Shown here: positions 6,638-52,157 of the stretch, piece by piece
How the letters are laid out: each line of letters begins with the position of its first letter
Position numbering within the stretch: position 1 is the first letter of the stretch
From: Methanocaldococcus bathoardescens
Lineage (GTDB): Archaea; AGJL01; Methanococci; Methanococcales; Methanocaldococcaceae
Direction: 5' to 3'
Assembly: GCF_000739065.1 (NCBI RefSeq)
Contig: NZ_CP009149.1
Location: 1,187,311-1,251,310 of the forward strand
Length of the DNA: 64,000 bases
Notes under the pieces: generated by a model
The model's input: only the letters and a program-made list of their open reading frames with translations
Databases searched by the model: none
What the model was told of the DNA's origin: nothing
Made by a program: the position numbers and the translations under genes

Positions 6638-6640
6638 TTT

Positions 6641-6793
6641 GAAACTTTAAGAAAGTTTCATCAAAGCTAACACCTCCTCGCTTACGCTCGGAGGTGTAAA
6701 TTAAGAGGCATTGCTTCCGTTAGGAAGCAATGCATCCGTTTTGATGAAACTTTTACTAAAAGTTTCGTTTAGATTTCACCTTCGGCTCCATTT
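6641..6793 (+). repeat. hairpin element with duplicated tRNA-Cys 3' end
   Basis: Directly after the tRNA come four hairpins. They are 6641-6659 (8-bp stem, loop AAG), 6671-6696 (CACCTCC/GGAGGTG around a CGAGC..GCGAG core, on the minus strand), 6705-6737 (GAGGCATTGCTTCC-GTTA-GGAAGCAATGCATCC) and 6746-6766 (GAAACTTTT-ACT-AAAAGTTTC). The outer segments are inverted copies of TTTTGATGAAAC..GTTTC, so the whole block is bounded by inverted repeats. The bases 6771-6793 match the tRNA 3' end 6618-6640 at 18 of 23 positions, including GGCTCCATTT. It looks like an element integrated at the tRNA 3' end; the distal tail has drifted mainly by C to T changes. Confidence 0.7.
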
Positions 6794-7040
6794 TTTTATA
6801 TATGGCTTAGGTTCTCTTTTTTATAGAGTTAAATTTTAAACCTAAAGGTGTATCTATCAATAATAATAAGATATAAATATAACCTAATCAAATTAATACT
6901 AAGCTTGTTTTATTGGTTTAAATTACTCTCTTTGATGTGGAGTTTTATGCTACAAAAATCTAAATCTTAAACACAAAATAAATAAATTGGAAAGAAAATC
7001 AAAATAAATTAATTAAAAAATAATTGAGAGAGGTGCAAAA
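6794..7040. other. AT-rich leader region of the S19e operon
   Basis: I see no convincing gene or RNA here. It is AT-rich and ends in GAGAGGTGCAAAA, the ribosome site of S19e, so it probably holds the operon promoter and 5' leader. Confidence 0.5.
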
Positions 7041-8435: not shown

Positions 8436-8591
8436 ATGGGAAGTAACAAGCCATTAGGAAAGAAGTTAAGATTGGCTAAAGCATTAAAGCAGAATAGAAG
8501 AGTTCCATTGTTTGTTATTGTTAAAACACGAGGGAGAGTTAGATTCCATCCAAAAATGAGATACTGGAGAAGAAAGAAATTGAAAGCTTAA
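8436..8591 (+). CDS. rpl39e: 50S ribosomal protein L39e
   Basis: 51 aa beginning [20 protein letters not shown] and ending [11 protein letters not shown], a full-length L39e, the small protein lining the lower exit tunnel of the large subunit. The second ATG (8436) is preferred over one a codon upstream, since the GGTGAG site is 5 bases ahead of the pair. It is 8 bases from the PP-loop gene. Its last seven codons plus stop recur at 8666-8689 downstream. Confidence 0.96.
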
Positions 8592-8689
8592 GTGAATGGA
8601 CATTAATTAGGGCTGAAAGCCCTAACTTAATGGACGAGTTTTGATGAAACTTTTACTAAAAGTTTCGAAGGAAGAAATTGAAGGCTTAA
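8592..8689 (+). repeat. hairpin element with duplicated rpl39e tail
   Basis: Two hairpins follow the L39e stop: 8607-8625 (TTAGGGCT-GAA-AGCCCTAA) and 8646-8666 (GAAACTTTT-ACT-AAAAGTTTC), the second preceded by the TTTTGAT flank also seen at 6739. The bases 8666-8689 then repeat the end of rpl39e and still read R-R-K-K-L-K-A-stop in frame; the differences (AGA/AGG, AAA/AAG, and AGA/CGA at the junction) are silent. The copy's TTAA supplies the stop codon of the convergent UPF0146 gene. Confidence 0.75.
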
Positions 8690-9099: not shown

Positions 9100-9204
9100 T
9101 TTTCCACATCTTTGAAATTTTAGAAACATTTAAATATAAATAAATAATAAAAAATTCTGTCCAATTTGGACTTTACTTTACATTATTAAACTGGGAGGGG
9201 AATT

Positions 9205-27145: not shown

Positions 27146-27161
27146 TCATAATGTGAGAGCC

Positions 27162-28241
27162 ATGCTTCCAAACAAAAGAGCATTGGAAATTATTAGAAAG
27201 TATATGAAAATCTACAATGGGAGAAATGAAGAAGATATTAAAGAGAGATTAATTAAAGAGTTAAAGGAAGAAAATGTCTTAGTAGAAACTGAAGACGGAA
27301 CTTATACATTAAAAGCAGAAGATGAAGAGGAAATGATGCATTCAAAGGTTGGGGCTTTAAAGGAAGCGATTTATAAGTTTGCTAAACCATCAAAAATTGA
27401 AAATTTAAAAAACCCGAGAGTTTTAGATTTGTGTAGTGGTATGGGGTACAATGCTATAGCTGCTTTGCATTATAATAAAAATGCAAAGATAGATATGGTT
27501 GAGATTTGCGAAGAAGTTTTATTTTTAACTTTATTTTTAGATATTCCATATAAAGAGCATGAGATTATAAAAGATAAGGTTAGAGAGTATTTTTTAAACA
27601 AAATTGGCATTGAATATAAGTCAGATTATGATAATATCAATTTATATGTTGGAGATGCGAGAAAATTTATAATAAAGAGTGATAAAAAATACAATGTGGT
27701 TTTTCACGATGCATTTTCACCAAAAAGAGACCCCACTCTCTACACCTATGATTTTTTGAAAGAAATTTATAAAAGAATGGAAGATAATGGAGTTTTGATA
27801 TCTTACTCTTCAGCAATTCCTTTTAGAAGTGCTTTGGTTGATTGTGGTTTTGTAATTTCAGAAAATGAGAGTGTTGGGAGAAAAAGAGGGATAACCTTAG
27901 CTTACAAAAACCCAAATTTTAAACCAAATAGAATTAATGAGGTTGATGAGAGAGTTATAGCTTTATCAGTTATAGCTCTACCTTATAGGGATGAAACATT
28001 AAGCTTAACTAAAGATAAAATAATAGAGAATAGGGAAGAGAGAAGAAAAAAATTAAAAGAAAAATTAATTAAAATAGAAAAATACCTATCAACAAAACAG
28101 ATAAAAAAAGGAAATATTCCAGAAGAGGTTTTAAAAATTCAAAAAGAAGATTTGAACTCATCAGAGATAATTAAAAAGATGAGGTTGAAATTTTTCTCGA
28201 ATATAGGCGATAAAATATTTATTGAGATGTTCAAATTTTAA
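27162..28241 (+). CDS. MnmC-like SAM-dependent methyltransferase
   Basis: About 359 aa. The SAM site VLDLCSGMGYNAIAALHY is near residue 88, followed by IDMVEICEEVLFL, LYVGDARKFI and VVFHDAFSPKRDPTLYTYDFLKEI. The HDAFSPKRDPxLYT block and SAIPFRSALVDCGF match the MnmC methyltransferase domain (Methyltransf_30, COG4121). In bacteria this domain acts on 5-aminomethyl-2-thiouridine at the tRNA wobble base. The archaeal form has an extra helical C-terminal part of about 90 residues. An ATG at 27162 is used; a GTG at 27153 is possible. Confidence 0.82.
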   Translation: MLPNKRALEIIRKYMKIYNGRNEEDIKERLIKELKEENVLVETEDGTYTLKAEDEEEMMHSKVGALKEAIYKFAKPSKIENLKNPRVLDLCSGMGYNAIAALHYNKNAKIDMVEICEEVLFLTLFLDIPYKEHEIIKDKVREYFLNKIGIEYKSDYDNINLYVGDARKFIIKSDKKYNVVFHDAFSPKRDPTLYTYDFLKEIYKRMEDNGVLISYSSAIPFRSALVDCGFVISENESVGRKRGITLAYKNPNFKPNRINEVDERVIALSVIALPYRDETLSLTKDKIIENREERRKKLKEKLIKIEKYLSTKQIKKGNIPEEVLKIQKEDLNSSEIIKKMRLKFFSNIGDKIFIEMFKF

Positions 28242-28412
28242 TTTTGATGAAACAGAAAGCTCTGCTTTCTGGCTACAAATCCGTAGGATTTGTTCAATCG
28301 AAGCGTTAGCTTCGGGTTATAAAAACTCTTATGAGTTTTTATTTAACCAAAGCGTTAGCTTTGGGCAATGAAAACCGTTAGGTTTTCATCTAACTTTTTC
28401 TAAAAGTTTCAT
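28242..28412 (+). repeat. six-hairpin array inside one closing stem
   Basis: Starts one base after the methylase stop with TTTTGATGAAAC and ends with AAAAGTTTCAT, so ATGAAAC (28247-28253) can pair with GTTTCAT (28406-28412). Between them are six perfect hairpins: 28253-28271 (loop TCT), 28275-28293 (GTA), 28299-28314 (GTTA), 28319-28342 (TTAT), 28347-28364 (GTTA) and 28369-28388 (GTTA). Stems are 6-10 bp and all different, separated by 3-5 bases; a small seventh hairpin (AACTTTT-TCT-AAAAGTT) precedes the end. The outer arms match the flanks of the elements after tRNA-Cys and rpl39e. No clear copy of the gene tail is seen here. Confidence 0.72.
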
Positions 28413-28511
28413 GCAAACCTTTTTATACTATAAGCTCATAGTTGTTGAGGATGCTAAAATCTCTTTTTAGCATCTTTAAAAATTACTAAATTTTATTAGG
28501 AAGTGGAATAT

Positions 28512-52043: not shown

Positions 52044-52157
52044 GATTTAATTTCTCTTTATTTATGAGGCATTGCCGAGCGTTAGCGAGGCAATGCATCC
52101 TATCCCAATAGGGCGAAGCCCTATGGTTCGGGAAGTATTTTATATTCAATGTGGTGA
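52044..52157 (+). repeat. hairpin element with duplicated S2P tail
   Basis: Hairpin GAGGCATTGCC-GAGC-GTTA-GCGA-GGCAATGCATCC (52065-52099) is followed by ATAGGGC-GAA-GCCCTAT (52106-52122). Then 52129-52157 repeats the end of the protease gene (52017-52043) with a 2-base TA insertion; the substitutions ATA to ATT, TCG to TCA and stop TAG to TGA are all silent. The copy ends in GGTGA, which is the ribosome site of marC. Confidence 0.78.

Follow-up and report, generated by a model that had tools for sequence, protein, structure and literature searches.

The array of hairpins at positions 28242-28412 of the window (the whole stretch of 64,000 nucleotides of Methanocaldococcus bathoardescens DNA that was analysed; its genome is called G000 below) is best read as one copy of a non-autonomous mobile palindromic element of the MJRE kind that grows in a modular, nested manner, a reading to which we give a probability of about 0.6. 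Short palindromic repeats are common in prokaryotes and the origin of hairpin arrays has mostly been guesswork; the orthologous sites described here show the states before and after hairpin units were gained within a hairpin, down to the exact junction. Modular, nested growth of such elements is newly resolved here, the repeat class having been only roughly known. According to papers that cite the original work, MJRE1-3 are palindromic repetitive elements of Methanocaldococcus jannaschii, some copies of which lie in frame inside coding genes (Suyama, Lathe and Bork 2005, FEBS Lett 579:5281; cited in PMC2229807 and PMC2996958). Judged by this description, the likeness is that of dispersed palindromic repeats in the same genus, with 17 matches to the present element in relative G003, and it extends to a copy with a single unit that runs in frame through a 412-codon ORF of G000 (L104, 8379-8450), adding about 24 codons. 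We take G003 to be M. jannaschii and the product of the 412-codon ORF to be LarC. The MJRE paper is not known to describe A-B units (the double hairpins that are dealt with below), growth inside hairpins, flanking repeats or occurrence outside the genus.

Upstream of the array is an MnmC-like gene (27153-28241) and downstream of it a DEAD-box helicase gene preceded by a TATA-like stretch (28420-28428); the array occupies the entire gap from the stop codon of the former to this stretch. Read from 28242, it consists of TTTTGATGAAA, A1, GCT, B1, TCAA, A2, B2, A3, GCA, B3, CT, D and TCAT (Table 1). The sequence-only reading had placed six perfect hairpins here; the location was right, but there are seven hairpins when the last, D, is counted. 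It had correctly noted that three of the loops are GTTA, and its remark that the outer arms equal the two halves of a simple hairpin at 6739 and 8639 turned out to be the key to the locus, that simple hairpin being the form of the element that has no units (n = 0). The outer pair ATGAAAC/GTTTCAT is present, and as its right half overlaps an arm of the seventh hairpin the two pairings compete. The folding energy of the array was -64.1 compared with -31.8 (sd 3.6) in shuffles (z = -9.1; 0 of 200 shuffles), and Markov-simulated copies of 322 kb of the G000 genome gave 0 clusters of at least three hairpins. An Rfam 15 search of the window returned only one tRNA and two CRISPR repeats above the gathering score, and the array was without a family. 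The focal copy has no clear flanking direct repeat. A separate hairpin, GATGCTAAAA-TCTCT-TTTTAGCATC, is found at 28450-28474 in the 5' leader of the DEAD-box helicase gene and, unlike the array, it is conserved in G003 and G006.

Table 1. Parts of the focal array and related hairpins and repeats elsewhere in the window.
Feature	Position	Strand	Remark
n = 0 form, reverse orientation	6640..6665	-	abuts tRNA 3' end
Two partner palindromes of other families (ACACCTCC..GGAGGTGT; GCATTGCTTCC-GTTA-GGAAGCAATGC)	6668..6733	.	same composite as the hairpins at 6640 and 6739
n = 0 form (parental hairpin) TTTTGATGAAACTTTTACTAAAAGTTTC	6739..6766	+	in composite behind tRNA gene
Left copy of ~23-bp direct repeat flanking site R composite	8569..8591	+	
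Partner palindrome TTAGGGCT-GAA-AGCCCTAA of site R composite	8607..8625	.	
n = 0 form, site R	8639..8666	+	orthologous site n = 1 in G006 and G001
Right copy of site R direct repeat	8667..8689	+	begins right after GTTTC
Left arm of parental hairpin, TTTTGATGAAA	28242..28252	+	begins right behind TAA stop of upstream gene
A1 hairpin CAGAAAGC-TCT-GCTTTCTG, then GCT linker	28253..28271	+	
B1 hairpin ACAAATCC-GTA-GGATTTGT	28275..28293	+	
A2 hairpin TCGAAGC-GTTA-GCTTCGG	28298..28315	+	basal T.G, then 6 Watson-Crick pairs
B2 hairpin ATAAAAACTC-TTAT-GAGTTTTTAT	28319..28342	+	
A3 hairpin CCAAAGC-GTTA-GCTTTGG	28347..28364	+	
B3 hairpin ATGAAAACC-GTTA-GGTTTTCAT	28368..28389	+	
D, terminal hairpin AACTTTT-TCT-AAAAGTT	28392..28408	+	right arm pairs also with left arm 28246-28253
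Right outer arm GTTTCAT	28406..28412	+	

The stems of the array had been thought unrelated and of random sequence. They are instead alleles of two alternating families, A and B, which show compensatory changes and recur in dozens of dispersed copies, and the unit that is added is a fixed A-B double hairpin where single hairpins had been supposed. Nearly all copies obey the grammar TTTTGATGAA-(A hairpin-GCT-B hairpin-TTAA)n-ACTTTT.CTAAAAGTTTC, in which n is 0 to 3 and the linker behind the B hairpin is TTAA or TTCAA; A-GCT-B-TTAA is repeated one to three times in dozens of copies, and n is 3 in the focal copy. Stems of the A family are CCGAAGC, TCGAAGC, CAGAAAGC, TGGAAAGC or CCAAAGC, and those of the B family are ACAAATCC, ACAAAACC, ACAAAATCT, ACAAAACTC, ACAAAAACTC, ATAAAAACTC, ATGAAAACC and similar. 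At the core is the 28-nt hairpin TTTTGATGAAACTTTT.CTAAAAGTTTC, usually accompanied by at least one partner palindrome. The locus has 24-25 matches in G000 (1,607,556 bp) and the element has 17-22 in three relatives, while 16 of the 36 Methanococcales genomes searched, from which the relatives with other G numbers are taken, contain matches; these copy numbers are minimum values, the reading having covered stretches around matches that amount to about 320 kb of G000. Another repeat family, of about 113 bp (L112, 8420-8540), has dozens of copies in G000 and relatives.

A comparison of orthologous sites bears directly on how the arrays grow. The focal site has n = 3 in G000 and n = 1 in G006, the A1-B1 pair being the same, and in G003 a deletion has removed both the element and the final codons of the gene. 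Gain or loss of whole hairpins among relatives had been anticipated for this locus and is what these three, one or no units represent; a hairpin number and sequence conserved in all relatives, which would contradict such turnover, was sought and not observed. Site Q (L112, near 11920) has n = 0 in G000, G006, G013 and G007 and n = 2 only in G003. The n = 0 form, TGCAACTTTT-aga-AAAAGTTGCA, and the n = 2 form of G003 have the same altered outer arms, giving a locus-specific, compensated outer stem (TGCAAC/GTTGCA) that is common to both states. In a tree built from four gene regions, G013 and G007 lie outside the close group, and since this outgroup has n = 0 at site Q, n = 0 is the older state there and two units were gained in G003. 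The earlier proposal that hairpins are added inside a parental hairpin thus holds, with A-B units gained inside a resident hairpin at one site, Q. Independent insertion of ready-made elements was considered as the source of the differing n at site Q and was rejected, because both states have the TGCAAC/GTTGCA outer stem. Neither the element nor the flanking duplication of about 73 bp is present at site Q in G001, G004, G009, G010 and G011, which calls for several losses at this site. A search of G003 for a donor array nearly identical to the gained units found none, the best partial match being 94% over 50 bp. Two further sites differ in the same respect: at site P there are two units in G000 and none in G003 and G006, and at site R, G006 and G001 each have one unit, with differing B stems, where G000 and G003 have none. 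Outgroup polarisation applies to site Q only, sites P and R being unpolarised as the order of G000, G003 and G006 has a support of 0.46. At all compared sites the units are positioned at GATGAA^ACTTTT, which is in the 5' arm of the hairpin and not in its loop, where insertion had been suggested.

As to the route by which A-B units get into the hairpin, we infer that a resident hairpin would receive new units copied from other elements, anchored on the common ends TTTTGATGAA and ACTTTT..AAAAGTTTC, or alternatively that units would be inserted directly at GATGAA^ACTTTT; the tandem units could then grow or shrink in number by recombination. There is also a second double hairpin, CTGCAACC...GGTTGCAG-GGA-AGTTGAATAATC...GATTATTCAACT, which lies within a B hairpin, on its 5' arm, and is followed immediately by AAATC or AAACC. 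It occupies this position in two genera, in G000 (L115) and in G035 (L251, and less clearly L250), and G033 has a copy outside such a hairpin (L246). Hairpin pairs within hairpin arms are therefore not unique to the A-B units.

Throughout the family the stems covary and the loops drift. When hairpins were picked by their flanking anchors, with complementarity not required, 340 of 399 pairs were Watson-Crick compared with 222.5 (sd 7.3) for shuffled partners, a count that is lowered by a few chance anchors. Two arrays at different loci in G006 have seven identical stems and identical linkers and differ in three loops only; the G000 orthologues of these loci carry other arrays, a pattern indicative of copying from one locus to another. 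In some hairpins two alleles are combined into a chimera, for example CAGAAAGC...GCTTTCCA. Stems might be kept perfect if the folded single strand is recognised by a copying or mobility machinery or, alternatively, if one arm templates the repair of the other, and the loops would be free to drift. Replication template switching at hairpins could in principle build and perfect hairpins passively, with no mobile element, and perfect stems with drifting loops, together with the chimeric hairpins, fit such arm-templated correction. As the whole explanation, however, we consider it very improbable, as it leaves unexplained the dispersed copies with common stems, the filled and empty sites, and the letter-perfect hairpins found across archaeal phyla (see below). 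Passive palindrome expansion may act in addition to the mobile element.

Strong covariation of stems could also arise by selection on RNA, if the array acted in the transcript of the upstream gene as a functional RNA or terminator. The position of the array, beginning right after a stop codon and ending ahead of the TATA-like stretch of the next gene, is compatible with this, as is the rarity of copies between divergent genes (1 of 55). Relative to genes, however, 22 copies are in tandem-sense and 19 in tandem-antisense orientation (10 are convergent, 1 is divergent and 2 are in ORFs), so there is no strand bias. Mismatches among 1274 stem pairs, a set that includes a few chance hairpins, were G.T (G.U in RNA) in 20 cases, A.C in 13 and others in 10, with G.U not clearly above A.C and hence no clear RNA signature. 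Furthermore, the number and identity of stems vary between orthologous sites, and one copy lies in frame within the 412-codon ORF. We therefore regard a role as RNA as unlikely, and the element is most likely without a fixed host function at the focal locus.

If the array is a copy of a mobile element, copies would spread along the chromosome, often landing between target direct repeats. Among 92 composites made up of a partner palindrome and the element, flanking direct repeats were above the 95% control level in 42 and above the 99% level in 37, where about one is expected, the controls being mismatched flanks in which per-site composition is not modelled (the same caveat applies to E-values). 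The repeats are 11-73 bp long and are seen at about 40% of copies, and comparison of filled with empty sites confirmed duplications of about 24 and about 73 bp. The right end of the element is constant (GTTTC) and the left part is variable. One composite in the window (6640-6795), made up of four palindromes and bounded by copies of CGGCTCCATTT, immediately follows a tRNA gene; G000 and G003 have it, and G006 and G001 do not. At 52065-52126, upstream of a gene, the palindromes GCATTGCC-GAGCGTTAGCGA-GGCAATGC and ATAGGGC-GAA-GCCCTAT are found between 26-bp near-identical direct repeats (GGGAAGTATATTATATTCGATGTGGT). Long and variable direct repeats, a constant right end and a variable left part would be accounted for by a SINE-like retroposon, the structured RNA of which is copied into staggered nicks. 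This we judge to be extremely improbable, as a reverse transcriptase (PF00078) had no match in G000 and 34 others of the 36 Methanococcales genomes, the one match being in G033.

The lengths of the direct repeats vary too much for one known transposase. It is nevertheless conceivable, if doubtful, that the element is of a REP/BIME- or PATE-like type and was moved by a single-strand Y1 (IS200/IS605, RAYT) transposase that has since been lost from G000, with A and B descending from its end palindromes. Y1 genes (PF01797) are present in 5 of the 36 genomes (G006, G013, G022, G029 and G034), and in G034 and G022 B-like palindromes adjoin the gene (ACAAAAACC-gta-GGTTTTTGT and ATAAAAACC-gaa-GGTTTTTAT). 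The focal B3 hairpin recurs in G013 and G007 repeats of the same layout, seven copies in G013 and six in G007 being identical over the 25 bases around it. These two observations make descent or exchange with IS200/IS605 ends a serious rival. In addition, the element hairpin is preceded by TTGAT, the target pentanucleotide of ISDra2. Against this, G000, G001 and G003 have many copies of the element but PF01797 had no match in any of the three, and a Y1 transposase was rejected as the present mover as there is no match in the host G000. That element-rich genomes lack this usual single-strand transposase suggests that another enzyme or host repair is at work.

Known systems resemble the present element in part. 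As in REP/BIME-RAYT systems, there are tandem two-palindrome modules, the number of which varies by strain, and complementary stem changes (PMC2817692), and the head-to-tail hairpin units with short fixed linkers recall BIMEs; however, REPs within BIMEs are arranged in alternating orientation and require a Y1 transposase (PMC2817692), whereas the present units are head to tail and the cognate Y1 is without a match in the three element-rich genomes. The PATEs and SMR-A of Haloquadratum walsbyi are likewise archaeal, transposase-free and palindromic, with a small element found within another, but the palindromes of PATEs are near-terminal in longer elements, and PATEs and SMRs have no target duplication (PMC3119063) where many of the present copies have long ones, which also speaks against a PATE-like origin. 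The mobile two-hairpin units of mitochondria, the double-hairpin elements (DHE) of Allomyces and the repetitive hairpin-forming elements (RHE) of sponges, are alike in their mode of action only: they are small mobile hairpin pairs with nested or tandem insertion, conserved stems, varying loops and occasional copies in coding or RNA genes, but they belong to organelle DNA and those of Allomyces are stated to be without flanking duplications (PMC2800124).

The parental hairpin of the element extends well beyond the genus. The exact 27-base pattern TTTGATGAAACTTTT.CTAAAAGTTTC was found in 45 stretches, against about 0.003 expected by chance in the collection; nearly all are archaeal, one non-archaeal stretch being from a WWE3 bin. 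The n = 0 hairpin is present in Micrarchaeota, Pacearchaeota, Woesearchaeota, Nanoarchaeota, Aenigmatarchaeota, Diapherotrites, Thaumarchaeota, Methanobrevibacter, Methanovirga and Methanocaldococcus, and in intergenic positions of two IMG/VR viral contigs (L255, 4384-4410; L256, 4356-4382), while the plasmid and phage collections searched gave no match. Seven of 54 copies, all from DPANN archaea (L258, L263, L265, L271, L276, L294 and L299), are found within tRNA genes, including those for Ala, Ser and Arg, as introns 31-62 bases long called by ARAGORN with its intron option; the hairpin makes up nearly the whole intron in L258 and L265, and another three copies abut tRNA ends. With a letter-perfect hairpin in many archaeal phyla and two viral contigs, in part as tRNA introns, the question can be addressed outside a single genus. 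We tentatively suggest that in archaea a widespread, horizontally moving 28-nt hairpin could serve as a landing site for double-hairpin modules. A candidate structure-directed activity might insert units into the 5' arm of a folded hairpin, always equally far from the loop, and another might put new hairpins between long, variable target duplications, both without a Y1 transposase or reverse transcriptase, the hairpin being a tRNA intron in some DPANN archaea. Viral contig L256 also contains tandem GAAGCTTTT-agg-AAAAGCTTC hairpins near 9108. Bins of Pacearchaeota and Aenigmatarchaeota contain tandem copies of the n = 0 hairpin and its flank, 27 to 60 bases apart (L283, 7104-7191; L282, 4067-5131; L284, 3320-3374).
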